DNA from: Leucobacter soli
GTDB lineage: Bacteria; Actinomycetota; Actinomycetes; Actinomycetales; Microbacteriaceae
Length of the DNA: 64,000 nt
Direction: 5' to 3'
NCBI RefSeq assembly: GCF_910593785.1
Contig: NZ_CAJVAP010000015.1
Coordinates: 1 to 64,000, forward strand
Positions 29,036 through 43,040 of this stretch are shown piece by piece. The number at the start of each line of letters is the position of its first letter. Within the stretch, counting starts at the first letter, position 1. The position numbers were made by a program, and so were the translations under genes. A model generated the notes under the pieces. That model saw only the letters and a program-made list of their open reading frames with translations, did not search any database and was not told the origin of the DNA.

Positions 29036-29091
29036 CAGTACCGCTCAGCCAGCACCGCTCAGCCGGCACCGCTCAGGCAGCACCGCCGAGG
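29036..29091. repeat. Tandem 14-bp repeat, four copies
   Basis: Units close to CAGCACCGCTCAGC run head to tail (29036-29049, 29050-29063, 29064-29077, 29078-29091). The last two overlap the 3' end of the esterase gene, so repeat change would alter its C-terminus. Confidence 0.7.
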
Positions 29092-29858
29092 CGCGAGCGC
29101 AGGAACCCGGCGATCAGATCCGCGTACTCAGGCGCATCGATCGCGGGATCCTCGTGCCCGGCGCCGCCGACCGTCACGAGCGTCGATGGCACCCCGGCGA
29201 GCGTGAGCGCCGTATGGAAGCGCTCGCTGACCGCGGCGTCGATCACTCGGTCCCGGTCGCCGGTGAGCAGCAGGAACGGTGAGGCGCCGCGTGTGACGTT
29301 CGCGATCGGGTTCAGGCCGACGTGCTCGGGACGCCGCGGATCGTAGGCCGCGCCGAGGAAGCTCTCGGCAGGGTCGAAGAGTTCGAGTTCGAGCGGTGTT
29401 CCGCCGGTCATGAACGCCAGATCGAGCGGGCCGAACCAGGGCACCGCCGCGTCGACGACCGGAGGTGCGCCGTCCACTTCGAGGGCGAGCATCGCTGCGA
29501 GGTAGCCGCCCGCGGAGGCTCCGACGCTGCCGATGCGCTCCGTGGCGACGCCGTACTCGGCGCCGTGCGCGCGTAGCCAGGCCGCTGCGGCCCGGGCGTC
29601 TTCGAGCGGGGCGGGGAACGGTGCGGCAGCAGCGAGACGGTAGCCGACCGTCGCCACGGCGATGCCTCGGGCTGCGAGCGCCAGGGCCCGGGTCTCCTCG
29701 TAGTCGGAGCGCGTGCCGACTTCGAATCCGCCACCGTGGAAGTAGATCGCGAGGGGAGGCGCCTCCGCGCCGGTCGGCACGTGCAGGTCGAGTTCGAGGT
29801 CGATGCCGTCGACGGAACGGTAGGTGATGCCGCGCTGCGAGCGTACTGCGTCAGTCAT
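29073..29858 (-). CDS. Alpha/beta hydrolase, esterase/lipase (HSL-like)
   Basis: Esterase-like protein of 261 residues with the oxyanion-hole motif H-G-G-G-F, the nucleophile elbow G-A-S-A-G-G-Y, an acid in G-D-R-D-R-V-I-D and a histidine in G-A-G-H-E-D, so the triad is complete. Length and motifs fit the hormone-sensitive-lipase group. AAGAGGA precedes the ATG at 29858. It is divergent from the hydrolase-monooxygenase operon at 29982 and shares its operator region, so it may release the substrate of that pathway from an ester. Confidence 0.83.
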   Translation of the reverse strand: MTDAVRSQRGITYRSVDGIDLELDLHVPTGAEAPPLAIYFHGGGFEVGTRSDYEETRALALAARGIAVATVGYRLAAAAPFPAPLEDARAAAAWLRAHGAEYGVATERIGSVGASAGGYLAAMLALEVDGAPPVVDAAVPWFGPLDLAFMTGGTPLELELFDPAESFLGAAYDPRRPEHVGLNPIANVTRGASPFLLLTGDRDRVIDAAVSERFHTALTLAGVPSTLVTVGGAGHEDPAIDAPEYADLIAGFLRSRLGGAA

Positions 29859-29907
29859 GGGAGTCCTCTTCGGCTCGGAGTAGACGGGAGTTCCGGCAAG
29901 GATGGCC

Positions 29908-29939
29908 TTGCACGTCTTACTGTGCAAGCGTACAGTAAG
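29908..29939 (+). promoter_or_regulatory. Promoter overlapped by a palindromic operator
   Basis: -35 TTGCAC (29908-29913) and -10 TACAGT (29931-29936) are 17 bp apart. The palindrome CTTACTGT (29916-29923) and ACAGTAAG (29932-29939) spans the spacer and -10, a classic repressor site of TetR/GntR type. It serves the 29982 gene and possibly the divergent esterase. The nearest candidate repressor is the TetR protein at 37723. Confidence 0.72.
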
Positions 29940-29981
29940 GACATCGGACGCACTACCCCTGCAACGAGCAAAGGAGCCCGC

Positions 29982-30815
29982 ATGTCAGATGCACCCGCAT
30001 CCACGAAGCCGACCTGGACCTACTGGGCGGAGCCGAGCACCATCGAGGCGGACGGTCTCACGACCGCCTACCGCCGCGACGGAGCCGGTGAGCCCATACT
30101 GTTCCTGCACGGCACCGGCTTCACCCGGCAATGGCTGCCGATCCACCGGAAGCTGGCCGGGAACGCCGACGTGATCGCGCCCGACCTCCCAGGTTTCGGC
30201 GCCACGGAGCTGCCCGGGGAGTTCGAGGACTTCTCCGACTACGTCCTGCATCTCGACGCGTTCCTCGACGCGCTCGGCATCCATCGCGCGCACCTCGTCG
30301 GCCACGGTCTGGGCGCTCGGATCGCCGCGCACCTGGCCGCCGTGTACCCGAGCCGCTTCGCCAGCCTGACCCTCATCGCCCCGACCGGCCTGCGGGTCGA
30401 AGGCGTACGACTCGTCGACGCCTTCCGGCTCTCCCCCGAGGCGACACGGGTCGCGCAGTTCAACGGGCGCGAGAGCGACCACGCCGACACCTTCGAGCTC
30501 GAGGGCTTCCCCGGCGACACGCTCGCGCACTACGCGGAGTCCACCGCCCACGCCCTGCTCACGTGGACCAACCGCTTCGACCGCAAGCTCGAGCGGCGCA
30601 CCCGCCGCATCGTCGCTCCCACGCTCGTCATCGCCCCCGAGGAGGATCGCTACGCCGGTCAGGGCACCGCGACCCGATACGCCGAGCTGATCCCCGGCGC
30701 TCGGGTCGAGACGATCGCCGGCCCAGCGGGAGAGCCCTCGTCGCACGCCGTCCACATCGAGCAGCCGGACGCCGTCGCCGCGCTGATCTCCGACCACGTC
30801 TCTTCGCACCACTAA
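29982..30815 (+). CDS. Alpha/beta hydrolase-fold protein lacking the serine nucleophile
   Basis: A 277-residue MhpC-like alpha/beta-fold protein. The oxyanion region F-L-H-G-T-G-F is normal, but the nucleophile elbow reads L-V-G-H-G-L-G: position 109, normally Ser, is Gly (codon GGT at 30306-30308, one base from AGT Ser). A downstream acid (A-P-E-E-D-R) and His (S-S-H-A-V-H) remain. It may use a non-covalent mechanism or have lost activity. AAGGAG precedes the ATG at 29982. It is followed after 12 bases by the luciferase-like monooxygenase, suggesting they act on the same substrate. Confidence 0.82.
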   Translation: MSDAPASTKPTWTYWAEPSTIEADGLTTAYRRDGAGEPILFLHGTGFTRQWLPIHRKLAGNADVIAPDLPGFGATELPGEFEDFSDYVLHLDAFLDALGIHRAHLVGHGLGARIAAHLAAVYPSRFASLTLIAPTGLRVEGVRLVDAFRLSPEATRVAQFNGRESDHADTFELEGFPGDTLAHYAESTAHALLTWTNRFDRKLERRTRRIVAPTLVIAPEEDRYAGQGTATRYAELIPGARVETIAGPAGEPSSHAVHIEQPDAVAALISDHVSSHH

Positions 30816-30827
30816 GGAACACGGACC

Positions 30828-32138
30828 ATGACCCAACGACTCTTCCACGTCCTCCTCAACGGCGCGTACCCGAAGGTGCCCTACGCCGGCGATCGCGGCT
30901 CGAACTTCATCGACCTGTCCAACACCCACTACGACCGCGCCGAGGGACAGCGCGTCCTCGAGCGCCAGCTCAAGATGTTCATCGACCTCGAGGAGTTCGG
31001 GTTCGACGGCGGCCTGATCTCCGAGCAGCACAACGGCCCCATCGGCCTCCTCGGCAACGCGCTGCAGGCCGGCACCTACGTCGCGGCGCGCACGAAGTAC
31101 ATCAAGATCGGCGCCGTCGGCCCGATCATGAACGACTACCTCACCCCGCTGCGCCTCGCCGAAGAGGTCGCGATGCTCGACAACCTGTCGCGCGGCAGAC
31201 TCGTGCTCGGCCTGCCCATGGGCCACGGCATGCAGTACCACTCCGTCGGCATGATGAACCCCGCGACCGCCCGCGAGCGCTACCGGGAGGGTCACGACCT
31301 GCTGATGAAGGCGCTCACGCACGACGGACCCTTCGAATGGTTCGGCAAGCACTTCCAGGTGCCCTACGTGAACCTCTGGCCGAAGCCGCTGCAGGATCCT
31401 CACCCCGAGATCGTGATCTTCGGCGGGGGCTCGCTCGAGACGCTCGACATGGTCGCGAAGCGGGGCTACGGGTACTCCGCCGTCGGGCTCAACGCCCAGG
31501 CCGCGATCAAGAAGCTGCACGAGCGGCTCCGCGACCTCGTCGAGGCGGACGGCGGCACTCTCGACCGCAAGCAGATCTGGGCCTCCGTGCGCGTGCACGT
31601 CGCCGAGACCGACGCGCAGGCACGCCAGGAGATGGAGGCCCACGAGCTCTGGAGCCAGCAGAACTTCTACCTCTCCCCCTGGCAGGACAACTTCCCGCCC
31701 GGCTATCTGAGCGCCAAGTCGATGGCCGGCGTGCTCGGCGGCGGCTACCGCAGCGCGTCGACGGCCGCGCAGGCGTACGAGAACGTGATCAACAACCGCA
31801 ACCTGATCGTCGGCTCGCCGGAGACGGTGCTCGCCGGCCTGCAGGAGCTCTTCGAGGATCAGGATCCGGGGCAGATCCTGCTCGACATGCTCTTCGATTC
31901 GAAGCCCGAGTGGCTCTCGTACAAGTCGCTGCAGCTGTTCGCCGAAGAGGTGCTGCCGAAGCTCCGCCCGGGCGGGGTCCCGCCGGCGCAGCACCGCAAG
32001 CTGCCCGGCCACGAGAGCCTCGCGGAGTACGCGGCGAAGGTGGACCCCGATCTGCCGCCGCCTACCGCGGACGTCGACGGCGTGCGCATCGATGTCTCGA
32101 AGGCGCACATCCCGGAGCTCCGCACGCCCCTCGGCTAG
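30828..32138 (+). CDS. Luciferase-like (LLM) flavin-dependent monooxygenase
   Basis: A TIM-barrel flavin oxidoreductase of 436 residues of the bacterial-luciferase superfamily. Recognisable parts are the F-I-D-L-E-E-F-G-F-D-G region, E-Q-H-N at about residue 66, the L-D-N-L-S-R-G-R-L-V-L-G-L segment and I-F-G-G-G-S. Such enzymes use reduced FMN made by a separate reductase; a flavin reductase gene is at 38413-39003. AAGGAA precedes the ATG. It ends at a strong bidirectional hairpin. The substrate is unknown; nearby ring-cleavage-type genes suggest a cyclic or aromatic compound. Confidence 0.85.
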   Translation: MTQRLFHVLLNGAYPKVPYAGDRGSNFIDLSNTHYDRAEGQRVLERQLKMFIDLEEFGFDGGLISEQHNGPIGLLGNALQAGTYVAARTKYIKIGAVGPIMNDYLTPLRLAEEVAMLDNLSRGRLVLGLPMGHGMQYHSVGMMNPATARERYREGHDLLMKALTHDGPFEWFGKHFQVPYVNLWPKPLQDPHPEIVIFGGGSLETLDMVAKRGYGYSAVGLNAQAAIKKLHERLRDLVEADGGTLDRKQIWASVRVHVAETDAQARQEMEAHELWSQQNFYLSPWQDNFPPGYLSAKSMAGVLGGGYRSASTAAQAYENVINNRNLIVGSPETVLAGLQELFEDQDPGQILLDMLFDSKPEWLSYKSLQLFAEEVLPKLRPGGVPPAQHRKLPGHESLAEYAAKVDPDLPPPTADVDGVRIDVSKAHIPELRTPLG

Positions 32139-32260: not shown

Positions 32261-33121
32261 TCAGCCGAACAGCTCCGCCGTGCGCCGCCAGAGATCGCTC
32301 GCCGGATCCCCGTACCCCTCGAATGCCCGCATGTGCGCGGCGCCCTCCACCTGGAACACCTCACCCCGGTTGCCGGCCGCCTGCCAGGCGTCGAAGAACT
32401 CCGCCGTCTGCCGGGCGAACTCCGCGGTCTCCTGCGCGCCATAGGTCAGCAGCAGCGTGCCCGGGACCGGGCGGACGTGACGCAGCGGCGACTCGCGCAC
32501 CACGGTCTCGTGGGTGAACAGCAGGCGCGGCGCGAGCCAGCTGTAGGGGAACGGCTCCAGGTCGAACAACCCGCTGATCGCGACGCCTGCGTGGATCGTG
32601 TCCGCCGGCAGGCCGTAGTCGCCCTCCCAGTCCGTGAGCATCAGTTGCGCGACCTGCTGGCCGCCGGCTGAGTGCCCGGCGACGACGATGCGGCTCGCGT
32701 CGATGCCGAGCTCGTCGGCGTTGGAGACCAACCAGGCGATCGCCGCGCGGTTCTGCCGGGTGATCTCATCGATCGTGACCTTGGGCGCGAGCGAGTAGTT
32801 CACGACCGCGGTGGCGATGCCGGCCGACGCGGGCGCGGCCGCGACGAGCGAGAAGTCGAGGCTGCTGTTGGGCGCGTGCCAGTACCCGCCGTGGATGAAG
32901 ACGAACAGCGGCGCGCCGGGTCGGGCGGCGGGGAAGAAATCGAGGTTCTCGTCGCGGGTCGGGCCGTAGCGCAGGCCGAGCCGATGGGGCAGGGCGTCGC
33001 GGGTCGCCGCGCCCCGATCGGCGTGCCGGGTGATGGATTCGAGGAAGTCCGTCTCGATCACGTCGATGCGGTACTGCTCGTCGATCTGTTCCTGCGAGGT
33101 GAAGTCGCGGTAGAGCGCCAT
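32261..33121 (-). CDS. Alpha/beta hydrolase, arylformamidase/esterase-like
   Basis: A 286-residue alpha/beta hydrolase with the oxyanion motif H-G-G-Y-W, the nucleophile elbow G-H-S-A-G-G, an acid region in L-L-T-Y-G-A-Q-E, and a histidine in V-E-G-A-A-H-M. The H-G-G-Y-W plus G-H-S-A-G-G pair is typical of kynurenine-formamidase-like and carboxylesterase proteins. It is downstream of the ABC importer genes but separated from them by a terminator-like hairpin, and may be read through at low level. Substrate unknown. Confidence 0.82.
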   Translation of the reverse strand: MALYRDFTSQEQIDEQYRIDVIETDFLESITRHADRGAATRDALPHRLGLRYGPTRDENLDFFPAARPGAPLFVFIHGGYWHAPNSSLDFSLVAAAPASAGIATAVVNYSLAPKVTIDEITRQNRAAIAWLVSNADELGIDASRIVVAGHSAGGQQVAQLMLTDWEGDYGLPADTIHAGVAISGLFDLEPFPYSWLAPRLLFTHETVVRESPLRHVRPVPGTLLLTYGAQETAEFARQTAEFFDAWQAAGNRGEVFQVEGAAHMRAFEGYGDPASDLWRRTAELFG

Positions 33122-33148: not shown

Positions 33149-33179
33149 GACGGGGGCGGGCAGAGCGCCCGCCCCCGTC
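33149..33179 (-). terminator. Hairpin downstream of the ABC importer genes
   Basis: A perfect 13-bp GC-rich stem (33149-33161 with 33167-33179) and 5-base loop lies between the substrate-binding protein gene and the downstream hydrolase. It may end or attenuate the ABC operon. Confidence 0.7.
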
Positions 33180-33203: not shown

Positions 33204-34232
33204 TCACCCCCACTCGCCCTCGAGGCCCTCCACGTTGTCCTTCGTCACGATGAACGGCGCGGCGAGATCGGCGACCTCTTCCGGCGTCGGAACGGGCTCG
33301 CCCGTGTTGTGCGCCACCAGCGCCTCCGCGGCGGTCGCACCGTAGGTGAACGGGCGCAGGATCACGGTGGAGAAGATGCTGCCGTCCGCCACGCCGGCAA
33401 GGCCCTGGCGGCTGCCGCCGTCGCCGAGCACGACGATATCGGTGCGGTCGATCTCCTTCAGCAGGTTGGCGACCTGCACCGCGGTGCTGTCGCTGGAGTT
33501 CAGCACGACGTTGGTCTCCGGGTTCGCGGCGATCAGGTCGGCGACGATCTGGCGGCCATCATCCGGCGTGAAGTAGTCCTCGCCCTGCGCCACCTCGACG
33601 AAACGGGGATCATCGCCCACCTCGGCCTGCACCGCCGCGTGGATGTCCTCCGAGAGCTGGTAGCCCTTGATGCCGAAGATGTGGATGTAGTTGCACGGGT
33701 CGAAGCCCTCGCATGCCGAGACCAGTGTCTCGGCGATCATCGAACCGTAGTTCTCGTTGCTGGTGCCGACCGAGACGATGACGCCGTCGAGCTGCGGCTC
33801 GACGGTCGTCGAGCTCGGACCGGCGAAGCCCTCGACGGTGGCGACGGCGATGCCGGCCTCATGTGCGGCCTCGACGCAGGGGATGGCGCCGGGGGCGCTG
33901 ACCGGGTTCAGGATGATCCCGTTGTAGCGGCCCGAAGCGATCGCGTCGTTGCAGATGGTGGTCAGCGAATTGTCGTCGTTGGCACCGTCGAGCATCGTGA
34001 CGCTGCCGCCGAGCCCCTCGGCGACCGACTCCGCTCCCTCGAGCTGCATCTGACCGAAGTCGGACAGGTCCGCGGCGATGAAGGCGAACGAGGGGGTGAA
34101 ATCCCCGCCGTCGGCGCCGGTGTCGTCCGTGCCGCCACCGCCGTTGCCGGCGGACGAGCAGCCGACGAGCGCCAGGGCGACAGCCGCGGCGCCGGCGACG
34201 ATGCCGGCGAACCGAAGTTGTGTGCGATTCAT
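33204..34232 (-). CDS. Sugar-type ABC transporter substrate-binding lipoprotein
   Basis: Periplasmic-binding-protein family (RbsB-like) of 342 residues. The signal peptide ends in the lipobox L-V-G-C with lipidated C25, followed by a Gly/Thr/Asp-rich linker. The two-lobed type I fold is indicated by motifs such as I-A-S-G-R-Y-N-G-I-I-L-N and A-N-P-E-T-N-V-V-L-N-S-S-D. AAAAGGAG precedes the ATG at 34232. It is the third gene of an ATPase-permease-binding protein set. RbsB-like proteins bind sugars but also autoinducers and other ring compounds; the ligand here is unknown. Confidence 0.9.
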   Translation of the reverse strand: MNRTQLRFAGIVAGAAAVALALVGCSSAGNGGGGTDDTGADGGDFTPSFAFIAADLSDFGQMQLEGAESVAEGLGGSVTMLDGANDDNSLTTICNDAIASGRYNGIILNPVSAPGAIPCVEAAHEAGIAVATVEGFAGPSSTTVEPQLDGVIVSVGTSNENYGSMIAETLVSACEGFDPCNYIHIFGIKGYQLSEDIHAAVQAEVGDDPRFVEVAQGEDYFTPDDGRQIVADLIAANPETNVVLNSSDSTAVQVANLLKEIDRTDIVVLGDGGSRQGLAGVADGSIFSTVILRPFTYGATAAEALVAHNTGEPVPTPEEVADLAAPFIVTKDNVEGLEGEWG

Positions 34233-34326: not shown

Positions 34327-35340
34327 TCAGCGGCGGTTGGAGGCTCGTATCCACGAATCCCAGCCGACTGCCAGCGCGATGATGAGGCCGGTGAAGATGC
34401 GCTGATAGGTGGGCTGCACGCCGAGCAGGTTGAAGCCGTTGCCGATGAGCTGCAGCAGCAGCACGCCGACCACGGTGCGCCAGATCGCGCCGGCGCCGCC
34501 CATCACCGAGGTGCCGCCGACCAGCACGGCGGCGATCGCGGTGAACTCGATGCCGCTGCCGATGCCGGCGTCGACGGTACCGGTGCGCGAGGCCGACATG
34601 ATGCCGGCCAGAGCGGCGCAGAAGCCCATCAGCACGTACGTGAGTGCGCGGGTCCGGTTGACGCGCACGCCCGCCATGCGCGCGGCCGCGGCGTTGCCGC
34701 CGACTGCGAACACGTGCCGGCCGAAGACCGTGCGGTTGAGCAGGAACATGTAGAGCAGGATCACGGCGATGAAGATGTAGACGGTGACCTTCAGGCCGAG
34801 GAACCGCGGCTGCGCGAAGTTCTTGAACGCCTCTTCCTGGATCACGATCAGTTTGCCGTCCGTGAGCGAGAGCGCGATGCCCGCGAACACCATGGTCGAG
34901 GCGATCGTCGCGACGAAGGGGTTCAGTTTGCCGTAGGTGGTCGAGAGGCCGTTGAGCGTGCCGAGGCCGGCACCGCTGAGCAGGCCGGCCAGGAGGCCGA
35001 GCACTGCCGATCCCGTCGCATTAGTAGTCATCGCGGCGACGATGGCGCCCACCGCGAAGATCGCCCCGATGGAGAGGTCGAAGCCGCCCGCGATGATGAC
35101 CAGCGTCATGCCGATCGCGAGGATGCCCATCGGGGCGAGCCCGTCGAGCAGGTTCGAGAGGTTGAGCGGGGTGAGGAAGGCGGGCGAGGCGATCGAGAGC
35201 AGGACGAACAGCAGCAGCAGCGCCCCGACGATGCCGAAGTCCCGGCCGATGGAGAGCGCCCGCGCCCGGGCGCTCTGCTTGCCCTTCGCCGGCACCGGGG
35301 TGCGCATGACCTCCGTGATGGTCTGGTTCGAGTTGCTCAT
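34327..35340 (-). CDS. ABC transporter permease, RbsC-like
   Basis: A 337-residue integral membrane protein with about 8-10 hydrophobic segments and the BPD_transp_2 pattern, including I-I-A-G-G-F-D-L-S-I-G-A-I and G-V-R-V-N-R-T-R. Its ATG overlaps the stop of the ATPase by four bases (ATGA). It forms the membrane channel for the importer with the ATPase at 35337 and the lipoprotein at 33204. A 94-bp gap separates it from the binding-protein gene. Confidence 0.92.
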   Translation of the reverse strand: MSNSNQTITEVMRTPVPAKGKQSARARALSIGRDFGIVGALLLLFVLLSIASPAFLTPLNLSNLLDGLAPMGILAIGMTLVIIAGGFDLSIGAIFAVGAIVAAMTTNATGSAVLGLLAGLLSGAGLGTLNGLSTTYGKLNPFVATIASTMVFAGIALSLTDGKLIVIQEEAFKNFAQPRFLGLKVTVYIFIAVILLYMFLLNRTVFGRHVFAVGGNAAAARMAGVRVNRTRALTYVLMGFCAALAGIMSASRTGTVDAGIGSGIEFTAIAAVLVGGTSVMGGAGAIWRTVVGVLLLQLIGNGFNLLGVQPTYQRIFTGLIIALAVGWDSWIRASNRR

Positions 35341-36875
35341 GCAGCCGCCTCCTGTGCGGTCCGTTCCGATTCCGGTGTCCAGAATGCTGCGGTCAGCAGC
35401 AGGTCCTTGTTCGCTTCGTGGTGGTCGTACTCCGCGACGATCCGCCCGCGCGCCATGACGAGCACGCGGTGGGAGAGTTCGAGCACCTCGTCGAGCTCGC
35501 TCGAGACGACGAGGATCGCGATGCCGCGGCTCGCGAGCTCGCGCAGGATGTCGTAGATCGCGGACTTGGCGCCGATGTCGACGCCGCGCGTCGGCTCGTC
35601 GACGATCAGCAGCCGGGGCTCCTTCGCCAGCCACTTCGCCAGCACCACCTTCTGCTGGTTGCCGCCCGAGAGCGTGCTGACGAGCGCGTCCACGCTCGCG
35701 GTCTTCACGCCGGCGCGGGTGACGAGCTCCTCCGCCTCGCCGCGTTCGCGGCCACTCCAGAGCACCCCGGCGCGGGCGAACAGGTCGAGATGGGGCAGCG
35801 TGAGGTTCTCCTTCACGCTGCGGTGCATGAGCAGGCCGAGCTCCTTGCGGTTCTCCGGCAGCATCGCGACGTTCGCCTTGATCGCCTCGGCCGGCGAGCG
35901 GAACCTCACGCGTTCGCCGTTCAGGCGCACCTCGCCCGAACGGTAGCGATCGGCGCCGAATACGGCACGGCACACCTCGGTGCGGCCTGCGCCGACGAGG
36001 CCGTTGATGCCGACGATCTCACCCGCGCGCACGGTCAGGCTGACGTCCTCGAAGTGGCCGGGCCTCGTCAACCCGGTGACCTCGAGCACGACGGGAGCGG
36101 TGTCCGGGGCGGCGGCGATCTCGGGCGGCTCGGTCAGGTGACGCCCGAGCATGGAATGGATGATGCTCTCGCGGGTCTCGTCGGCGGTGACCGCGGTGCG
36201 CACGTGCTCGCCGTCGCGCAGAATGGTGACGCGATCGCTGACCGCCAGCACCTCCTCGAGGAAGTGCGAGACCAGCACGACCGTCGCCCCGCGTGCCTTC
36301 AGCGAACGGATCACCCCGTGCAGCTGACGCACCTCGCCGGGGGTGAGCGCTGCGCTCGGCTCGTCCATGACGATCAGGTCGGCGCGCCGTGCAAGGGCGC
36401 GCAGGATCTCGACCTTCTGCTGGTCGGCCAGGCGGAGGTCGCCCACCAGGGTCTCGGGGTTCAGCTCGAAGCCGGTGCTCGCGACGAGCTCCTCGAACTC
36501 CTCGCGGGCGCTGCGATTGTCGAGCACTCCGCCATGTGCGCGCTCGATGCCCAGGAACACGTTGTCGATCACCGCGCGATCCGGGAGCATGGCGAGCTCC
36601 TGATCGATGATGGCGATGCCGTCGCGGATCGCATCCATCGGGGCCCGGTAGGCGGCGGCCTTGCCGTTCACCACCAGCGTCCCGCCGTCGTGGCGCACCG
36701 CTCCGGCGATGATCTTGCCGAGCGTGGACTTGCCGGCGCCGTTCTCGCCGACCAGGGCGTGCACCTCGCCGCGATGGATCTGCACGTTCACGTCCCGAAG
36801 CGCGTGCACACCGCCGTAGCGCTTCTCGAGGTGGCGCGTCTCGACATGCGCCTCAACGGGTTGCTGCGTTTCCAC
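35337..36875 (-). CDS. ABC transporter ATP-binding protein, RbsA/MglA-like
   Basis: A 512-residue double ATPase of the carbohydrate-uptake type. The first domain has Walker A G-E-N-G-A-G-K-S-T and signature L-A-D-Q-Q-K-V-E-I; the second has the degenerate Walker A G-L-V-G-A-G-R-T-E and signature L-S-G-G-N-Q-Q-K-V. Such tandem domains are usual for RbsA. The GTG at 36875 follows GGAGGAGG. It is the first gene of the importer operon, and tandem 22-bp repeats lie just upstream. Confidence 0.93.
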   Translation of the reverse strand: METQQPVEAHVETRHLEKRYGGVHALRDVNVQIHRGEVHALVGENGAGKSTLGKIIAGAVRHDGGTLVVNGKAAAYRAPMDAIRDGIAIIDQELAMLPDRAVIDNVFLGIERAHGGVLDNRSAREEFEELVASTGFELNPETLVGDLRLADQQKVEILRALARRADLIVMDEPSAALTPGEVRQLHGVIRSLKARGATVVLVSHFLEEVLAVSDRVTILRDGEHVRTAVTADETRESIIHSMLGRHLTEPPEIAAAPDTAPVVLEVTGLTRPGHFEDVSLTVRAGEIVGINGLVGAGRTEVCRAVFGADRYRSGEVRLNGERVRFRSPAEAIKANVAMLPENRKELGLLMHRSVKENLTLPHLDLFARAGVLWSGRERGEAEELVTRAGVKTASVDALVSTLSGGNQQKVVLAKWLAKEPRLLIVDEPTRGVDIGAKSAIYDILRELASRGIAILVVSSELDEVLELSHRVLVMARGRIVAEYDHHEANKDLLLTAAFWTPESERTAQEAAA

Positions 36876-36932: not shown

Positions 36933-36955
36933 TGTGTTTACCACAGTGCTGTGCA

Positions 36956-36977
36956 TGTGTACAGCTTCGGCTATAAT
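36956..36977 (+). promoter_or_regulatory. Promoter element of the 37072 gene with shared motif
   Basis: A consensus -10 TATAAT (36972-36977) follows GTGTACAGCTTCGGC (36957-36971). The same GTGTACAG-Y-TTCGGC word is at the VOC-gene promoter (43109-43123). No good -35 is seen. Confidence 0.65.
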
Positions 36978-37071: not shown

Positions 37072-37353
37072 ATGACGTACATCGTCACCGCCGTATTCGA
37101 TACCGACCTCGAGACCCTCACCGCCTCCGAGCAGGCGCACCCCGAGGCCATCACCGCCATCGGCGAGATCGCCAAGGACTACATGATCGGCCACCAGCGT
37201 CACGCGCGCGACGGGCAGGTCATGGATATCGACACCTACCGCACCGCCGACGACTACCGCGCGTTCTTCGCGCAGGCCGAGCCGCACATCAAGCAGTACG
37301 TGGCGAATGCGAACACCACCGTCACCGACACCATGTGGGAAGTCATCGACTGA
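37072..37353 (+). CDS. Small dimeric alpha/beta-barrel-type protein
   Basis: A 93-residue protein of the ferredoxin-like dimeric alpha/beta-barrel kind (YciI/antibiotic-biosynthesis-monooxygenase style), judged from length, the opening beta strand Y-I-V-T-A-V-F-D and the pattern of two strand-helix-strand halves. A conserved-looking H-Q-R-H is central. AGAAGGAG precedes the ATG at 37072. It overlaps the next small gene by one base; both lie divergent from the ABC importer. Function unknown; relatives include muconolactone isomerases and small cofactor-free oxygenases. Confidence 0.62.
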   Translation: MTYIVTAVFDTDLETLTASEQAHPEAITAIGEIAKDYMIGHQRHARDGQVMDIDTYRTADDYRAFFAQAEPHIKQYVANANTTVTDTMWEVID

Positions 37354-37655
37354 TGAGCGACGACTGGGTCGCCGATGTCGAGATCGTCACGCTCGCACCG
37401 AAACCGGGCGCCCGCGACGAGCTGCTGCGCATCCGGCCGCAGATCCTCGCCGAGTACGACGCATTCTGCGGAGGCCGCTACGATGCGACCCTCACCGAGA
37501 ACGAGGACGGCGGGTGGGTCGACGTCTGGCGCTGGGTGGATCGAGCCGACGCGGAGGCCGCACTCGACGACATCCCCGGCATCATCCCGACCTTCGCCCG
37601 ATGGGCCGAGCTCGTCGACCTCGAGTCGCTCGTCTGGGTGAAGCGGATCGGCTGA
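37353..37655 (+). CDS. Small dimeric alpha/beta-barrel-type protein, second of pair
   Basis: A 100-residue protein with an antibiotic-biosynthesis-monooxygenase-like layout: first strand V-A-D-V-E-I-V-T-L, K-P-G-A-R-D-E-L-L turn, and W-V-D-V-W-R-W in the third strand. The ATG overlaps the previous stop by one base (TGATG). The pair might form a heteromeric barrel. A stem-loop follows it directly. No catalytic assignment is possible from sequence alone. Confidence 0.65.
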   Translation: MSDDWVADVEIVTLAPKPGARDELLRIRPQILAEYDAFCGGRYDATLTENEDGGWVDVWRWVDRADAEAALDDIPGIIPTFARWAELVDLESLVWVKRIG

Positions 37656-37666
37656 GCCTCATCGAT

Positions 37667-37694
37667 GCAGGCGGCCCGAGCCCGGGCCGCCTGC
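37667..37694 (+). terminator. Hairpin after the small-protein pair
   Basis: A perfect 12-bp stem, GCAGGCGGCCCG (37667-37678) with CGGGCCGCCTGC (37683-37694) and a 4-base loop, separates the small-protein pair from the TetR gene. Confidence 0.7.
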
Positions 37695-37707
37695 ACAAAT
37701 GGCACGG

Positions 37708-37723
37708 TATAGGCTGGATGCGA
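37708..37723 (+). promoter_or_regulatory. -10 element of a probable leaderless tetR-type transcript
   Basis: TATAGG (37708-37713) is nine bases from the ATG at 37723, and no ribosome site is seen. Confidence 0.5.
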
Positions 37724-38358
37724 TGAACAACAGCGCGGCCAAGTCGACGAGGAAGGCACCGTCGAAGCCGAGGTCGAAATCGGCCCCGGCGCATGCGAGA
37801 GGCGAGGGGCGCGACGCCATCCTCAAGGCCGCCTACGAACTCATGCTGCAGGATCGGGTCAGCAGCGTCTCCCACCGCAGCGTCGCCGCACGCGCCGGGG
37901 TCGCCGTCGGCCTGATCCGCTACCACTTCTCGACGCGGACCACACTGCTGCTCGCCTGCATCACCCACCTGATGGAGGAGCGCCACGAGGTCGCACTGGA
38001 GGCGCTGAGCCGGTGCCGCCCGGGACTCGACCCGATCGAGACCGGGCGACTCGCGGTGACCGCCTACACCGGACCGGACATCTCGGACAGCGGGCTCACC
38101 TCGACGCTCGCCGCCCTCCTCGACACGGCCCGCGAGGACCGCGTGCTCTCGGAGTTCCTGATAGCCGAGCGCCCGACCGTCGAGGGCGACCTCATGGCCG
38201 TGCTCGAAGCCTGCGGCTGGGGCGAGGCCGATCCGACGCTCGTCCTCCACGTCATCGACGGCGCCCTCGTCGCCGGCATCGTCGACAAGCAGCCCGGGCT
38301 GCTCGACGTCGCGGCACGCTCGTGCGCGGCCGTGCTGTCGCTCAGCAAGCCGCACTAG
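37723..38358 (+). CDS. TetR-family transcriptional regulator
   Basis: A 211-residue TetR regulator. After a basic Ser/Lys-rich N-terminal stretch of about 30 residues comes the helix-turn-helix (about residues 30-80; S-H-R-S-V-A-A-R-A-G-V-A-V-G-L-I-R-Y-H-F). The remainder is a ligand domain. It is placed centrally in the second catabolic locus, so it is the leading candidate to control the GTACAG-containing promoters at 29908, 36956 and 43096. The ATG at 37723 is chosen over a GTG at 37699 because of the -10 spacing. Confidence 0.85.
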   Translation: MNNSAAKSTRKAPSKPRSKSAPAHARGEGRDAILKAAYELMLQDRVSSVSHRSVAARAGVAVGLIRYHFSTRTTLLLACITHLMEERHEVALEALSRCRPGLDPIETGRLAVTAYTGPDISDSGLTSTLAALLDTAREDRVLSEFLIAERPTVEGDLMAVLEACGWGEADPTLVLHVIDGALVAGIVDKQPGLLDVAARSCAAVLSLSKPH

Positions 38359-38412: not shown

Positions 38413-39003
38413 TCAGGCCGGGGTGAGCCCCTGCCCCTGGGCGAAGAAGCCGCCGCCGAGATAGATCATCGCGGGCTGATCGGTCGCCGCCGCCTCGATC
38501 ACCTCGCCGATGAAGATCGTATGGGTGTAGGCGGGGATCTTGTAGCGCACCGCGAGCTCGAAGTGCCCGGCGCTGCCATCGATCACCGGCGCACCGGTGG
38601 TGCCGGGATGCCAGTCGAGTCCGGCGAACTTGTCGCCGCCCGACCTCGCGAAGGCGCGCACGACACCGACCTGGTTCTCGGCGACGATGTTCACGCCGAT
38701 GTGCTCCGCGCTGAACAGCCAGGGGTAGGTGGAGGCGTTGGCGTTGACGGCGACCATGATGAGCGGAGGATCGAGGGAGATCGAGGAGAACGCGTTAACG
38801 GCCAGCCCCCGCGGCTGCCCGGCTGCGTCCGCGACGGTGACGATCGTCACCCCCGTCGGGTACGTGCGGTGCACGGCACGGACCTTGTCACCGATCGTCG
38901 GTTCTGCGCTCTGCGTCGGCTCCGCGGCCTGCGTCGGTTCTGCACTCGTCGTCGATCCTGCGTTCATCGTCGCCGCTCCACTCGCACTCGCTGCCTCGCT
39001 CAT
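38413..39003 (-). CDS. Flavin reductase (HpaC-like)
   Basis: A 196-residue FMN-binding split-barrel flavin reductase. The core has Y-P-T-G-V-T-I-V-T, N-A-F-S-S-I-S-L-D-P-P-L and a C-terminal Y-L-G-G-G-F-F. It should supply reduced flavin to the luciferase-like monooxygenase at 30828. The ATG at 39003 is fixed by GAGGAGGAG just upstream. The first about 45 residues are low complexity with a repeated A-E-P-T-Q unit, which is unusual for the family. Last gene of the six-gene operon starting at 43040. Confidence 0.87.
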   Translation of the reverse strand: MSEAASASGAATMNAGSTTSAEPTQAAEPTQSAEPTIGDKVRAVHRTYPTGVTIVTVADAAGQPRGLAVNAFSSISLDPPLIMVAVNANASTYPWLFSAEHIGVNIVAENQVGVVRAFARSGGDKFAGLDWHPGTTGAPVIDGSAGHFELAVRYKIPAYTHTIFIGEVIEAAATDQPAMIYLGGGFFAQGQGLTPA

Positions 39004-39026
39004 CGTCGCTCCTCCTCGTGCACGCG

Positions 39027-39434
39027 TCATCGGTCGATCGGCAGGACGCCGATCGAGTGCAGCACGCTCACTTCGTTCCAGCTCGCCCAGTCCTCGACGA
39101 TCCTGCCGTTCTCGAAACGACTGATCGTGATCCCGCTCGCGGTGACCGTGCGCCCGGTCGGCGGGGCGCCGAGATAGTCGCCCAGGTGCGTGCCGGTCGA
39201 GACCCAGCGGTAGGCGACTCGGTCGCCCTCCTCGACGATGTCCACCACCTCCGAGCGGAGATCGGGGAATCCCGAGTGCAAGCCGTTGAGGATCCGCTTG
39301 AAATCCTCGAGGGTCTGGTCTCCCTTGCCGCCGTGACGGATGAAGTCGGGGGCGAAGAGTCGATCCATCGCTTCGATCTCGCCGTGGTTGTCGACGCGCG
39401 ACCACAGGTCGACGAGCACGTCCTTATTACTCAT
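39027..39434 (-). CDS. SnoaL-like / NTF2-fold polyketide-cyclase-type protein
   Basis: A 135-residue NTF2-superfamily protein with the ester-cyclase (SnoaL) pattern: W-S-R-V-D-N-H-G, L-F-A-P-D-F-I-R-H, F-P-D-L-R-S-E-V, and a closing G-R-I-V-E-D-W-A-S-W. Such proteins catalyse small isomerisations, cyclisations or hydrolyses. GAGGAG precedes the ATG at 39434, 16 bases after the aldehyde dehydrogenase stop. Role in the pathway unknown. Confidence 0.8.
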   Translation of the reverse strand: MSNKDVLVDLWSRVDNHGEIEAMDRLFAPDFIRHGGKGDQTLEDFKRILNGLHSGFPDLRSEVVDIVEEGDRVAYRWVSTGTHLGDYLGAPPTGRTVTASGITISRFENGRIVEDWASWNEVSVLHSIGVLPIDR

Positions 39435-39450: not shown

Positions 39451-40965
39451 TCAGGCTGCCCTTCCCGCCGGGGCGGAGAGCAGGTTCACGGTCTTCAGTC
39501 GCGTGTTCGCGTGCAGGCCGGCGAGTCCGAGCTCCTCGCCGATCCCACTGCCCTTCACTCCGAGCCAGGGCAGCGCGGGATGCGGTGGCCCCCACGCGTT
39601 CACCCACACCACGCCGACGCGCAGGGCCCGGGTGAAGCGGGTGATGCGGCTCGCGTCGTTGGTCCAGAGCACGGCGGTCAACCCGTACTCGGTGCCGTTC
39701 GCGTACTCGAGCGCCTCGTCGTCGTCATCGAAGGGGATGACCGTGCCCACCGGGCCGAAGACCTCCTCGCGCGCGATCGTCAGCGTGTTGTCGCCCAGGA
39801 AGACCGTCGGCTGCACGAAGCAGCCGCGGTCCCCGACGCGGGAGCCGCCGGTGATCAGCGTCGCTCCCTCGTCCTGCGCCTGCGCGATGTAGCCGAGGAC
39901 CCGCTCGAGCTGCTGCTCGTTGATGAGGGATCCCATGTCCGTGCCCTCGGCCAGCGGGTCGCCGACCCGGATCTCGTCCGCGCGTGCCGCGAGGCGGGTC
40001 AGGAAGGCGTCGAGCACGTCGCGGTGCACGTAGATGCGCGAGCCCGAAGCGCAGGTCTGCCCCTGGTTGGCGAAGAGCGAGAGCGCGGCGACCGGCACGA
40101 CGGCGTCGAGATCGGCATCGGGCCAGACGATCTGCGGAGACTTCCCGCCCAGTTCGAGGGTGACCTTGGCGAGGTTCGCGCCGGCGGCGGAGGCGATGCG
40201 CGTGCCGACCGCCGTCGAACCGGTGAAGGTCACCTTGTCGACGAGGGGGTGCTCGGCGAGCGCGGCGCCCGCCGACGTGCCGGTTCCGGTGACGACGTTG
40301 AGCACGCCGCCGGGAATCCCGGCCTCGAGCGCGAGCTCCCCGAGCTTCAGGGTCGACAGCGAGGCGTCCGCGGCCGGCTTCACGACCAGGGTGTTCCCCG
40401 CGGCGAGGGCGGGCGCGATCTTCCACGCGGCGATCATGGTCGGCGCATTCCACGGCGTGATCGCGCCGACGACCCCGAGGGGTTCGCGGAGCGTGTACGA
40501 GAAGCGTTCCGCGCCGGCGAAGGGCGGCAGCGAGAACGTCGATCCGGTGATCTTGTCGGCCCAGCCGGCGAAGTGTCGCAGCGTGTCGACGACCAGGGGG
40601 ATCTCGGCGAAGAAGGCCTCCGCGTAGGGCCGGCCGACGTCGAGCGCCTCGAGCCGGGCCAGCTCGTCGAGGTGCTCCTCGACCAGGTCCGCGAAGCGCC
40701 ACAGCAGCTTCGCCCGCTCGGCACCCGAGACCCGCGACCAGTCGCCCCCGTCGAACTGCGCCCGCGCGGCCCGTACCGCGGCATCGATGTCCGCGGCCTC
40801 ACCGGCTGCGATCTCGGCCAGCAGCTCGCCCGTCGCGGGCGCACGGACGGCGATGGTGCCGCCGCTCGCCGCGGGCCGCCAGGTTCCGTCGATCAGCAGG
40901 TCCGTCGGCGGCGGCGGAGCGTCACGACCGAATCCGGTACCGGCACTGGCACTGGCACTGCTCAT
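39451..40965 (-). CDS. Aldehyde dehydrogenase of the second catabolic locus
   Basis: NAD(P)-dependent aldehyde dehydrogenase of 504 residues with nucleophile C305 (N-Q-G-Q-T-C), base E271 (T-L-E-L-G-G-K-S) and P-W-N-A-P in the cofactor site. Its relatives in ring-cleavage clusters oxidise muconate-type semialdehydes, which fits the neighbouring VOC and FAH-family genes. Its ATG overlaps the upstream decarboxylase-family stop by four bases. Specific substrate not determinable. Confidence 0.88.
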   Translation of the reverse strand: MSSASASAGTGFGRDAPPPPTDLLIDGTWRPAASGGTIAVRAPATGELLAEIAAGEAADIDAAVRAARAQFDGGDWSRVSGAERAKLLWRFADLVEEHLDELARLEALDVGRPYAEAFFAEIPLVVDTLRHFAGWADKITGSTFSLPPFAGAERFSYTLREPLGVVGAITPWNAPTMIAAWKIAPALAAGNTLVVKPAADASLSTLKLGELALEAGIPGGVLNVVTGTGTSAGAALAEHPLVDKVTFTGSTAVGTRIASAAGANLAKVTLELGGKSPQIVWPDADLDAVVPVAALSLFANQGQTCASGSRIYVHRDVLDAFLTRLAARADEIRVGDPLAEGTDMGSLINEQQLERVLGYIAQAQDEGATLITGGSRVGDRGCFVQPTVFLGDNTLTIAREEVFGPVGTVIPFDDDDEALEYANGTEYGLTAVLWTNDASRITRFTRALRVGVVWVNAWGPPHPALPWLGVKGSGIGEELGLAGLHANTRLKTVNLLSAPAGRAA

Positions 40966-41429
40966 GCTGGCGCGGTCTCCGCCTCGACGTCCGCGGCCTC
41001 CGCTTCGAACCTCTCGGCAACCGCCTCCGCCTCCGCCTCAGCAGCCTCCGCCTCGAACGCGCGCACGACCTCTCCCGCGATGCGGAACGCCTCCACGCCT
41101 GCCGGGATGCCCGCGTAGACGGAGAGGTGGATGAGCGTGTCCTTCACCTCGTCCACGGTGACGCCGTTGTTGCGCAGCGCGCCCTCGAGGTGCAGCTTGA
41201 ACTCGGCCGAACGCCCGAGGGTCCCGGTGATCACGAGGTTCAGCAGGCTGCGGTCGCGACGGCTCAACGCCTCGCGGCTCCAGTTCGCGCCCCAGCAGAA
41301 CTCCGTCACGAGCTCCTGGAACTCGCGCCCGAACTCCCCCGCGTTCGCGAAGGAGCGCTCCACGTATTCCTCGCCGACGACGGCCTTGCGGATCCTGAGA
41401 CCCTGTTCGAATTTCGATTCATTCGTCAT
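40962..41429 (-). CDS. Carboxymuconolactone-decarboxylase-family protein
   Basis: A 155-residue CMD-family protein with F-C-W-G-A-N-W-S-R, L-G-R-S-A-E-F-K-L-H and D-E-V-K-D-T-L-I-H-L-S-V-Y-A-G-I-P. It is similar in layout to the PcaC of this window but outside the pca operon. The C-terminal about 35 residues are almost only Glu, Ala and Val, an acidic tail not expected for the family. GAAGGAG precedes the ATG at 41429. It may act on a lactone or be a peroxide-handling AhpD-like protein. Confidence 0.83.
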   Translation of the reverse strand: MTNESKFEQGLRIRKAVVGEEYVERSFANAGEFGREFQELVTEFCWGANWSREALSRRDRSLLNLVITGTLGRSAEFKLHLEGALRNNGVTVDEVKDTLIHLSVYAGIPAGVEAFRIAGEVVRAFEAEAAEAEAEAVAERFEAEAADVEAETAPA

Positions 41430-41457
41430 GGTGGCTCCTTCTCGCCGTCTGCGCCGC

Positions 41458-42411
41458 TCAGTCGCCGCGCACCTCGTCCACGACCGGGTTCGACAGTGTG
41501 CCGATGCCCTCGATCGTGACGGCCACTGCATCCCCGTCCTTCAGGAACTCCGGCGGGGTGCGCTTGAACCCGACTCCCGCCGGCGTGCCGGTCGGGATGA
41601 TGTCTCCCGGCTCCAGCTCGACGAACTCCGAGATGTGCTCGATCAGCGTCGGAATGTCGAAGATGAACTCGGCCGTGTTCGCATCCTGCTTCACCACGCC
41701 GTTCACGGTCGTCGTGATGCGCAGCTTGTGCGGGTCGAGGCCTTCGTCGGTCAGCGAGATGTGCGGACCGATCGGACCGGATGCGTGGAAGTTCTTCCCG
41801 CCCGTGTACTGGGCTACCCGGAACTGGAAATCGCGCACCGTGACGTCGTTGAAGACGGTGTACCCCGCCACGTGCGCCATCGCATCGGCCGCGCTGATGT
41901 GGCGGCCGCCCGTGCCGATCACGACGGCGAGCTCGCCCTCCCAGTCGAGCTGCTCGGACACGAAGGGGGCGACGATCGGATCGCCGTCGGCGATCTGGGT
42001 CACGGCGAATCGGGGGAACAGGATCGGGATCTCGCTCACCTGCAGCCCGGCTTCTGCGGCGTGCTTGCCGTAGTTGCGGGCGACGCACACGATCTTCGGC
42101 GGATTCGGCACCGGCACCAGGGTCTTCGCGTCCGCACGGGCGACCGTCACCCCGGCGGCCCGTGCCGCATCCGGGTCCAGAGAAGCCGCGTAGGCGACCG
42201 CCTCCCGCAGCGCCGCATAGCTCGCCTCCCCGCCCTGCAGGTAGGCGAGCGCGTCCGGTCCGAGCACGGCGTTCGCGAGGGCGGCGGCGTTCGCGACGCC
42301 CGTCGCCGCCTGCGCGCCGGCGTAGGCCTTCGTCAGGTCGATGTAGAGGTCTCCGTGGATCACGCCGAGGCGATCCTCCCCGGCGTGGCGGAAACGTGCG
42401 AGTTGAGTCAT
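41458..42411 (-). CDS. Fumarylacetoacetate-hydrolase-family enzyme
   Basis: A 317-residue FAH-superfamily protein with the metal-binding core D-W-E-G-E-L-A-V-V-I-G, N-D-V-T-V-R-D and G-K-N-F-H-A-S-G-P-I-G-P, then D-I-I-P-T-G-T-P-A-G-V-G. In ring-cleavage pathways such enzymes are decarboxylases/isomerases or hydratases of 2-oxo-enoic acids, or C-C hydrolases. GGAGGAG lies upstream of the ATG at 42411, and the gene follows the VOC gene after 23 bases. Which reaction applies cannot be decided. Confidence 0.88.
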   Translation of the reverse strand: MTQLARFRHAGEDRLGVIHGDLYIDLTKAYAGAQAATGVANAAALANAVLGPDALAYLQGGEASYAALREAVAYAASLDPDAARAAGVTVARADAKTLVPVPNPPKIVCVARNYGKHAAEAGLQVSEIPILFPRFAVTQIADGDPIVAPFVSEQLDWEGELAVVIGTGGRHISAADAMAHVAGYTVFNDVTVRDFQFRVAQYTGGKNFHASGPIGPHISLTDEGLDPHKLRITTTVNGVVKQDANTAEFIFDIPTLIEHISEFVELEPGDIIPTGTPAGVGFKRTPPEFLKDGDAVAVTIEGIGTLSNPVVDEVRGD

Positions 42412-42434
42412 GAGAGCGGGCTCCTCCGGTTCGG

Positions 42435-43040
42435 CTACTGCTGCGGCTTCTTCGAGAGGCGCAGGTCCTCCCAGTCGAGGTCTGCGAGATCCGCGCCCTT
42501 CGCGTGCTCGCGGAGGCGCTCGTACGCGTCGAAGTCGAAGTCGTCGAGTTCGATGTTCTGGATCGGCGGGTGATCGCGGACGACGTCGTCGGATCCGATC
42601 TGATCGATCGCGTAGTAGAACTCGTTGATATTGCCGTCGGGGTCGAGCCCGTAGAAGCGCGCGTGGTTTCCCGGGCCGCCGATGCGGGCGTTGACGATGG
42701 GGATGCTCTGCTCGACGAAGCGGTGATACATGTCGATCAGATCCTGGCGCGTGTCGAACTCCCAGGCGATGTGGTGCAGGCCGAGGACGGTCGCCCCGGG
42801 CGCCTGAGCCGTGGGGTTGCGCAAGGTGAAGATGGAGAGCCGGTGGTGGATCGTGTCCTTCGCGCCGCGCACGAACGCGCCCGAGAGGACGGCGACGCCG
42901 TGCCCGGCGCGGCTCTCGTCGTAGTAGAAGATCTCGGTGAGCTTCATCCCGAGCACCTCGGTGTAGAACTTCACGGAGCGCTCGAGATCGGCGACGGCGA
43001 TGCCGACGTGTCCGAGCCTGGCGACGCGGGGATTCGTCAT
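42435..43040 (-). CDS. VOC-superfamily protein, extradiol-dioxygenase-like
   Basis: A 201-residue vicinal-oxygen-chelate protein. Candidate metal ligands are H11 (L-G-H-V-G-I-A-V), H89 or H90 (G-L-H-H-I-A-W-E) and E140 (D-P-D-G-N-I-N-E-F-Y). This 2-His-1-Glu set and the D-P-D-G-N-x-x-E-F-Y motif match Fe(II)-dependent extradiol dioxygenases, but with one barrel's worth of sequence it is shorter than the common two-domain enzymes of about 290 residues. It is the first gene of a six-gene operon (VOC, FAH, CMD, ALDH, SnoaL, flavin reductase) and would be the ring-cleaving enzyme if the pathway is aromatic. Confidence 0.82.
   Translation of the reverse strand: MTNPRVARLGHVGIAVADLERSVKFYTEVLGMKLTEIFYYDESRAGHGVAVLSGAFVRGAKDTIHHRLSIFTLRNPTAQAPGATVLGLHHIAWEFDTRQDLIDMYHRFVEQSIPIVNARIGGPGNHARFYGLDPDGNINEFYYAIDQIGSDDVVRDHPPIQNIELDDFDFDAYERLREHAKGADLADLDWEDLRLSKKPQQ

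Follow-up and report, generated by a model that had tools for sequence, protein, structure and literature searches.

Two separately conserved gene modules, one around a luciferase-like monooxygenase and one around a VOC protein, appear to be merged in a Leucobacter soli locus

Do the sixteen genes at positions 29073-43040 of a Leucobacter soli contig form one catabolic system, or do they belong to several? The stretch analysed, referred to here as the window, comprises 64,000 nucleotides (NCBI RefSeq assembly GCF_910593785.1, contig NZ_CAJVAP010000015.1, positions 1 to 64,000). An earlier note, made from the letters of the window, had named the locus as its best candidate for an undescribed system. 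Codon-position analysis and open reading frames (ORFs), combined with Pfam and NCBIfam families, bear out the gene content given there: a luciferase-like monooxygenase (LLM), a flavin reductase, VOC, FAH, CMD and SnoaL proteins, an aldehyde dehydrogenase (ALDH), three alpha/beta hydrolases (ABH1 to ABH3), an RbsABC-type importer and one TetR regulator, which are numbered g1 to g16 in Table 1. The idea of a single undescribed system can be upheld in a weaker sense, as two conserved modules joined, with partial evidence of common control. Operon spacing, the modules themselves, co-occurrence and a promoter element all link the genes, which nevertheless do not make up one conserved block.

Comparison with related loci indicates that the locus is a merger of two separately conserved modules: module A, consisting of ABH2, LLM, SnoaL, the small protein g8 and the flavin reductase, and module B, consisting of VOC, FAH, CMD and ALDH. 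A search for conserved clusters around the LLM, as the earlier note had suggested, finds the five genes of module A contiguous on the Agrobacterium plasmid pAtCFBP6625a (L005) and on a plasmid of Rhizobium sp. 32-5/1 (L009). In both, the order is ABH-LLM-SnoaL-small protein-reductase, and identities to the window (L005/L009) are 41/43% for ABH, 43/44% for LLM, 44/46% for SnoaL, 25/24% for g8 and 50/50% for the reductase. Module B is clustered on R. etli pRetNXC12e (L010), where the VOC gene is divergent, a MoaF-like gene lies between CMD and ALDH, and an HpaB-type hydroxylase gene stands nearby; identities to the window are 61% (VOC), 52-58% (FAH), 66% (CMD) and 62% (ALDH). VOC-FAH-CMD also adjoins homoprotocatechuate operons in Gemmobacter (L011) and R. 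ruizarguesonis (L012). Two genomes from the same genus as the window carry it too (L021, L022), and in L021 the genes that follow encode an acyl-CoA-dehydrogenase-fold protein, a hydrolase and a flavin reductase. In the window, the SnoaL and reductase genes of module A lie inside the module B operon, and that reductase is the sole flavin reductase of the 16 genes.

Looser sets exist as well. By annotation, FAH, VOC and NTF2-like genes occur together in Haematobacter (L054) and Pararhizobium (L041), the latter with a sugar importer and a small ‘antibiotic biosynthesis monooxygenase’ protein, and the window VOC is weakly similar to theirs (26-27% over 91-94 aa). In Caballeronia and Polaromonas (L039, L040), VOC and FAH genes lie near one another. 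For g9 and ABH3, no conserved linkage was seen in the related loci compared, and ABH3 was dropped as a conserved partner, as nothing in those loci matched it. The module B FAH gene of genome G615 (L022:10030-11036) is split between two overlapping frames, reflecting a frameshift or an assembly error.

The genus was represented by 54 genomes, incomplete ones included, of which 45 pass a completeness filter. The LLM is present at 1e-60 in four of them, namely the window's own genome (G000), G594, G627 and G629, and ABH1 at 1e-40 in exactly the same four. RbsB at 1e-60 is found in three, all LLM-bearing, and in 0 of the other 50; the fourth LLM genome, G627, is 72% complete. The probabilities of the overlaps of ABH1 and RbsB with the LLM arising by chance are 3.2e-6 and 1.6e-4 if genomes are taken as independent, which they are not. 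ABH1, LLM and ABH2 lie in a row in L032, L034 and L036, and in G594 RbsABC genes precede a flavin reductase gene and a pair of ABH2 and LLM genes. The LLM was detected in one of 199 family genomes at 1e-60 and, with profile A1 at 1e-100, in two of 396 phylum genomes; a scan of genome contigs gave one locus, in a Solirubrobacteraceae metagenome-assembled genome (57%). The VOC occurs at 1e-20 in four of the 54 genus genomes (G000; G615 and G630 at 70%; G602 at 41%), and at 1e-38 in one of the 396 phylum genomes.

The most surprising single fact to emerge is that an added hydrolase gene is tied to the loss of serine from the partner hydrolase, ABH2. A homologue of ABH2 directly adjoins the LLM in all 15 LLM genes with readable flanks (window, L005, L007, L008, L009, L016, L031-L036, L037 twice, L038), these being the neighbourhoods opened and not a random draw. 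Among plasmids, 622 records matched the LLM and the neighbourhoods of four were opened (L005, L009, L038 and, through an ABH2 match, L037). The two LLM-ABH2 pairs of L037 were counted apart, neither being coded with an added hydrolase; the LLM and ABH2 of L016, absent from the gene caller output, were identified from the all-ORF set; and L006 was excluded because its contig starts 125 bases before the LLM. The pair is carried by two phyla, Actinomycetota and Pseudomonadota, next to different importers.

In the window, the nucleophile elbow of ABH2 reads GHGLG, the codon GGT at 30306 encoding Gly109, and the Ser-His-Asp triad is without its nucleophile. Serine is missing from five of the 15 ABH2 genes: Gly replaces it in the window and L034, Ala in L032 and L036, and Asp in L016 (GLDIG). 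All five loci have an extra alpha/beta hydrolase gene adjacent, which is ABH1 in four and, in L016, a GLSMG protein with 31% identity to ABH2 over 96 aa (BLAST). The other ten keep the serine, and no added hydrolase gene was seen next to those pairs, as judged from record annotation in L005, L037 and L038 and, for the rest, from the lack of an ABH1 BLAST match, Pfam searches of some neighbours and the lack of GxSxGG in two flanking genes per side (L009 is unannotated, and its upstream neighbours have no Pfam family). Asp222 and His255 are conserved in 13 of 13 readable rows; the ABH2 of L036 ends at a contig edge, leaving its acid and base residues unreadable.

On the LLM tree, serine loss and the added hydrolase take three changes each, and the grouping of the window with L007/L031/L035 is not firm (support 82/84 and 61/52 in two trees). 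A single origin of all five losses was considered and rejected (approximately unbiased test, p 8e-90 with L016 included), whereas the test does not reject a clade uniting the window with L032, L034 and L036 (p 0.077 for LLM; 0.44 for ABH2 with the elbow masked). Since the clade including L016 is rejected and the four-locus clade is not, loss and addition have coincided independently at least two times, which is too few for a sign test. The ratio of nonsynonymous to synonymous substitution rates (dN/dS) is 0.256 between the serine-less ABH2 genes of L032 and L034 and 0.277 between the serine-bearing genes of L007 and L031 (simple Nei-Gojobori count), and because the two values are close, the serine-less form looks to be kept under constraint. 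Values for the window against L032 or L007 (0.67 and 0.92 for ABH2, 0.77-0.87 for LLM) come from sequences too diverged for this method. Serine-less ABH2 may have been retained for binding, isomerisation or steering of the LLM product, a role that needs no serine. Should the LLM step still depend on it, this would be a case of an alpha/beta hydrolase fold that has a non-hydrolytic catabolic role and is mislabelled ‘hydrolase’ by annotation.

By strand and spacing, the genes fall into five groups that are probably transcription units. ABH1 (-) stands alone and ABH2-LLM (+) has a gap of 12. RbsA-RbsC-RbsB-ABH3 (-) has gaps of -4, 94 and 82, with a 13-bp hairpin between RbsB and ABH3. In g8-g9-TetR (+) the gaps are -1 and 67, g9 overlapping g8 by one base and a hairpin lying 5' of TetR. 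The last group (-) runs from g16 to g11, VOC-FAH-CMD-ALDH-SnoaL-flavin reductase, with gaps of 23, 28, -4, 16 and -4.

Two of these groups have a promoter element in common. The 18-bp pattern GTGTACAGYTTCGGCWAT occurs twice in the window, against 0.02 expected: at 36957-36974 in the g7/g8 promoter region, 82 bases from the start of g7, and at 43108-43125 5' of VOC, 68 bases from the start of g16. Exact hits to GYGTACAGYTWMGG number three genome-wide, the two window sites and one on contig C12. As the pattern GTGTACAGYTTCGGCWAT was derived from the two sites themselves, the pairwise score is the fairer figure: 0 of 148 and 2 of 2972 random stretch pairs from the same genome score as well as the importer/TetR and VOC promoters. 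The near-palindrome CTGTGCANGYGTACAG (16-bp core) is exact at 29920-29935, 62 bases before ABH1, and at 36949-36964. The shared 18-bp element supports joint regulation of importer/TetR and the VOC operon; the LLM unit may possibly be under the same control.

What the enzymes might do can be approached through their relatives. Among solved sequences, 7bip (4.8e-18) and luciferases lie nearest to the LLM, and there is a weak match to 3,6-diketocamphane monooxygenase (4uwm, 2.2e-5). The AlphaFold2 model of the LLM (pLDDT 68.5) has a fold that matches a similar list, that of a generic LLM. By analogy, it may act as a type II Baeyer-Villiger monooxygenase (BVMO) that would use FMNH2 from a separate reductase, a reductase being conserved with it. 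An LLM of Caenibius tardaugens converts progesterone to testosterone acetate, an ester, according to the portion of the report available (PMC12239570). It is on this precedent, and on the constant hydrolase partner, that we base a proposed oxygenation whose product is opened by a hydrolase.

For the VOC protein, the earlier note's extradiol ligands stand up to alignment: H11, H90 and E140, which we take to be the metal ligands, are invariant in 7/7 aligned homologues and line up with the dioxygenase H, H and E, giving the 2-His-1-Glu set of type I extradiol enzymes. H65, H66 and Y130 are also invariant in the 7 rows. Type I extradiol dioxygenases are expected to have a second active-site His before the Tyr, and this second His is not conserved here. 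Catechol dioxygenases are the top matches of the VOC profile, and we predict a one-domain extradiol ring-cleavage dioxygenase. A fold search with the VOC model led nowhere, returning mixed-function matches with query TM-scores of 0.25-0.47 among the 50 listed. The best solved relatives of FAH are an FAH-family protein and HpaG-type decarboxylases, and the ALDH scores 601.7 bits against a cut-off of 800 for the phenylacetaldehyde dehydrogenase StyD (NF045736). The CMD protein g14 was rejected as the genome's PcaC (4-carboxymuconolactone decarboxylase) because another gene, C15:8225-8581, exceeds the PcaC cut-off of 155.7 bits with 158.4 bits.

Taken together, these observations lead us to propose, tentatively and at slightly less than even confidence, a single TetR-controlled catabolic regulon built from two merged mobile modules, in which ring breakdown runs from LLM to VOC; the individual reactions, the sequence in which they follow and the shared regulation are all inferred. 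The RbsABC-type importer would take up a small ring compound or its conjugate, and the LLM, with FMNH2 from the reductase g11, would oxygenate it, most likely beside a carbonyl in type II Baeyer-Villiger style, to give an ester, a lactone or an opened ring. ABH1 would hydrolyse this product. ABH2, ancestrally the hydrolase that partnered the LLM, would be retained without its serine for a non-serine role, and SnoaL and g8 might rearrange or protect unstable intermediates. VOC, as a one-domain extradiol dioxygenase, would then cleave the ring of the freed phenolic, FAH and CMD would split or decarboxylate the cleavage product, and ALDH would oxidise the released aldehyde.

Several results weigh against this proposal. 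Both modules are present in only one of the 54 genus genomes (G000) at the cut-offs used; G594, G627 and G629 have LLM without VOC (1e-20), and G615 and G630 have VOC without LLM (1e-60). The pair score of the ABH1/ABH2-LLM promoter with the g7/g8 region is ordinary, being equalled by 5/146 and 176/2968 random pairs, and a palindrome of the quality of the one at 29916 is found in 203/3000 random stretches. A motif common to all three promoters, reached in only 66, 93, 10, 13 and 12 of 1000 shuffles at 10, 12, 14, 16 and 18 bp, is matched by 583, 756, 344, 406 and 436 of 1000 random real windows at the same lengths, and we dropped it as proof. With one mismatch allowed, the looser GYGTACAGYTWMGG gives 7 genome hits, compared with 18 for its reversed control, and the element is not in the rbsA region of G594, the sole relative's rbsA region scanned. 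The LLM is no closer to BVMOs than to F420-type and luciferase families. Searched as a single sequence, VOC has lactoylglutathione lyases as its best solved matches (1.1e-6), and the structure predicted for it is of poor quality (pLDDT 65.7). Finally, no evidence in the analysis names a substrate.

The main alternative is that two independent pathways lie side by side, one of LLM and hydrolase and an unrelated aromatic one of VOC, FAH, CMD and ALDH, as chance neighbours in this genome. The modules do occur apart in relatives, and the two further ABH2-LLM units of the genome have no VOC next to them. We consider this unlikely, given the placement of SnoaL and the only flavin reductase within the module B operon and the element common to the importer/TetR and VOC promoters. 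The earlier note had named, as an outcome that would refute its reading, parts belonging to separate, known pathways without conserved linkage. Half of this applies: the parts do come apart in relatives, but into modules for which our searches gave no described pathway.

Another explanation, which we hold to be about as unlikely, likens the locus to the Rut pathway (RutA-F) and, presumably, to trigonelline and pyridine enzymes. The LLM would open an N-heterocycle, ABH3 (formamidase-like) and ABH1 would remove formamide or amide, and ALDH would oxidise the semialdehyde. Rut likewise has an LLM, a flavin reductase and an alpha/beta hydrolase of the same folds in one catabolic unit, and the surroundings of related units are suggestive: in the contig's second LLM unit, genes for an isochorismatase-family protein and an NCS1-type permease are co-stranded with the reductase, RidA genes lie near the G594 units, DAO or amine oxidase genes occur in L005, L008 and L033, the latter two also having ornithine cyclodeaminase, and an amino-acid importer is annotated in L005. 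Yet g3, which matches 22 NCBIfam families (E<=0.001), has no match to the RutA model that we take this library to contain, and neither do the two paralogues; RutD and RutF reach 41.3 of 238.5 and 58.5 of 254.75 bits, far under their cut-offs, and the isochorismatase gene has no NCBIfam match at 1e-8. Among solved relatives of ABH3, kynurenine formamidase comes third (4e11, 2.9e-15), behind the nearer lipase 9n8r in first place (7.8e-36). VOC, FAH and CMD would be left unexplained and, like SnoaL, are to our knowledge not Rut parts.

It is improbable that VOC and FAH serve as isomerase and keto-acid hydrolase in a pathway for sugar acids or polyols, with the Rbs importer supplying the substrate. 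Although the importer is of sugar type, the NCBIfam family that FAH matches best is a hydrolase of the rhamnonate pathway (174.6 bits, cut-off 500) and lactoylglutathione lyases lead the single-sequence VOC matches, module B adjoins homoprotocatechuate operons (L011, L012) or stands near an HpaB-type hydroxylase (L010), and the VOC profile favours catechol dioxygenases.

Returning to the proposed regulon, its nearest described counterparts each differ in important respects. The homoprotocatechuate (hpa) meta pathway has a VOC dioxygenase, an FAH-family enzyme and an ALDH, but the window's proteins fall short of its models, with 34.7 of 321.4 bits for HpaD, 161.2 of 276.4 for HpaG-C (TIGR02303, the 5-oxopent-3-ene-1,2,5-tricarboxylate (OPET) decarboxylase/isomerase HpaG) and 459.7 of 638.35 for HpaE, and in L011 and L012 the hpa genes are separate from the adjoining module B. 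Type II Baeyer-Villiger LLMs, such as 3,6-diketocamphane monooxygenase and the LLM of the progesterone pdc cluster, have the LLM fold, a separate reductase and an ester product, although the window LLM is only weakly similar to the former; the available portion of the pdc report lists two regulators alongside a BVMO and the LLM and does not mention an ABH2-like partner (PMC12239570). In flavonoid A-ring degradation (fde/ifc), compared here by description only and from partial text, flavin hydroxylation is likewise followed by a glyoxalase-type dioxygenase; the hydroxylase is an FAD-binding monooxygenase, cupins come next, and disruption of the ifc alpha/beta hydrolase gene was without effect (PMC11069340), while fde products continue via pca (PMC11303751). 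Two leads were set aside on the portions of their sources available: the tetramethylpyrazine tpd system, where TpdA is a putative flavin monooxygenase and TpdB and TpdC are not mentioned, and the skatole pathway, whose enzyme belongs to group E. Within open-access titles and abstract openings, we found no paper on this gene combination and recognized none as this pathway, in agreement with the earlier note. Nor did the literature searched report a substrate for the LLM-hydrolase pair, and one solved substrate would be a lead for the whole pair family.

A bolder reading, which we regard as rather unlikely, is a new class of route for aromatic or heterocyclic breakdown, in which the LLM acts together with a pair of alpha/beta hydrolases. 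One of the pair would have begun as a serine hydrolase, lost its nucleophile repeatedly (or swapped it for Asp) in loci that gained a second hydrolase, and become a non-hydrolytic partner of the LLM, whose product would be passed to a one-domain extradiol/FAH/CMD lower pathway.

The features of the locus are collected in Table 1, with starts refined for ABH1 (29858), ABH2 (29982), the permease (35340), TetR (37723), the reductase (39030), SnoaL (39434), CMD (41429) and FAH (42411). The earlier note had called two of the proteins small barrels; g8 and g9 matched no Pfam or NCBIfam family, and the fold was not shown. For g9, no match was found in plasmids, and among the 54 genus genomes only its own matched.

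Table 1. Genes and candidate regulatory features of the locus, in window coordinates
Feature	Position	Strand	Evidence
g1 ABH1, BD-FAE/HSL-type alpha/beta hydrolase, GxSxG intact	29073..29858	-	Pfam BD-FAE 1.8e-34
Palindrome CTTACTGTGCAAGCGTACAGTAAG, ABH1/ABH2 intergenic, candidate TetR operator (suggestive only)	29916..29939		16-bp core shared with g7/g8 region
g2 ABH2, alpha/beta hydrolase, elbow GHGLG, Gly109 replacing Ser; Asp222, His255 kept	29982..30815	+	
g3 LLM, luciferase-like flavin-dependent monooxygenase, 436 aa	30828..32138	+	Pfam Bac_luciferase 4.7e-41
g4 ABH3, alpha/beta hydrolase with HGGYW	32261..33121	-	
Perfect 13-bp hairpin, terminator-like, between g5 and ABH3	33149..33179		
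g5 RbsB-type binding protein	33204..34232	-	Peripla_BP_4 7.2e-31
g6 RbsC-type permease	34327..35340	-	BPD_transp_2; homologue in G594
g7 RbsA-type ATPase, two-domain ABC	35337..36875	-	63% identity in G594 L030
CTGTGCATGTGTACAGCTTCGGCTAT, candidate operator, g7/g8 divergent promoter region	36949..36974		
g8 small protein, homologues adjoin LLM in L005, L008, L009, L033	37072..37353	+	24-33% identity, E 5.5e-13 to 1.4e-9
g9 small protein, orphan within searches made	37353..37655	+	
Perfect 13-bp hairpin, g9/tetR interval	37666..37695		
g10 TetR-family regulator	37723..38358	+	TetR_N 1.6e-7
g11 flavin reductase	38413..39030	-	Flavin_Reduct 1.5e-35; 50% to LLM-adjacent reductases of L005, L009
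g12 SnoaL-like protein	39027..39434	-	SnoaL 9.4e-31; 44-46% to LLM-adjacent SnoaL of L005, L009
g13 aldehyde dehydrogenase	39451..40965	-	Aldedh 4.8e-167; 62% to ALDH of R. etli VOC-FAH-CMD cluster
g14 CMD, PcaC-like, under PcaC cut-off	40962..41429	-	CMD 7.8e-17; TIGR02425 123.6 vs 155.7 bits
g15 FAH-family hydrolase or decarboxylase	41458..42411	-	FAA_hydrolase 3.9e-68; 52-58% R. etli, 67% L021
g16 single-domain VOC protein, extradiol-type H11, H90, E140	42435..43040	-	Glyoxalase/VOC 1.4e-18
GTGTACAGTTTCGGCAAT, 5' of VOC, twin of 36957-36974	43108..43125		

The contig also carries protocatechuate genes, at most 21 kb to the left of the locus, and substrate entry via protocatechuate is accordingly possible. 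This protocatechuate/4-hydroxybenzoate locus (8225-27669) has PcaC and PcaH over cut-off, a thiolase, PcaB-like and PcaD-like genes (under cut-off) and a 4-hydroxybenzoate 3-monooxygenase-type (PobA-like) gene. Past the VOC promoter, at 43326-43763, lies a DUF1801-like gene under the Pfam cut-off (24.2 of 27.2 bits).

The second ABH2-LLM pair of the genome is located at C15:65534-67798, 1.5 kb beyond the end of the window. Its surroundings include a fusion of a reductase with an IclR-C-like domain, an SBP_bac_8-type importer and a TetR-like gene. Its isochorismatase-family and NCS1-type permease genes belong to a stretch with Rut-like folds and an importer of its own (window 61849-63982 and C15:64179-72708; L007). 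The third pair, on contig C3 (L008), comes with a g8-like protein and has a DAO oxidase, an MFS transporter, an ornithine-cyclodeaminase-like gene and an HpaB-type hydroxylase nearby; about 3 kb before it, fragments at L008:3833-4314 resemble the remnant of an LLM gene. Elsewhere, a P450-ferredoxin fusion and a GcvT-like protein lie near the LLM unit of L032 (2705-7971), and a formyltetrahydrofolate deformylase near that of L034 (5350-7343), neighbours that hint at the removal of one-carbon groups.

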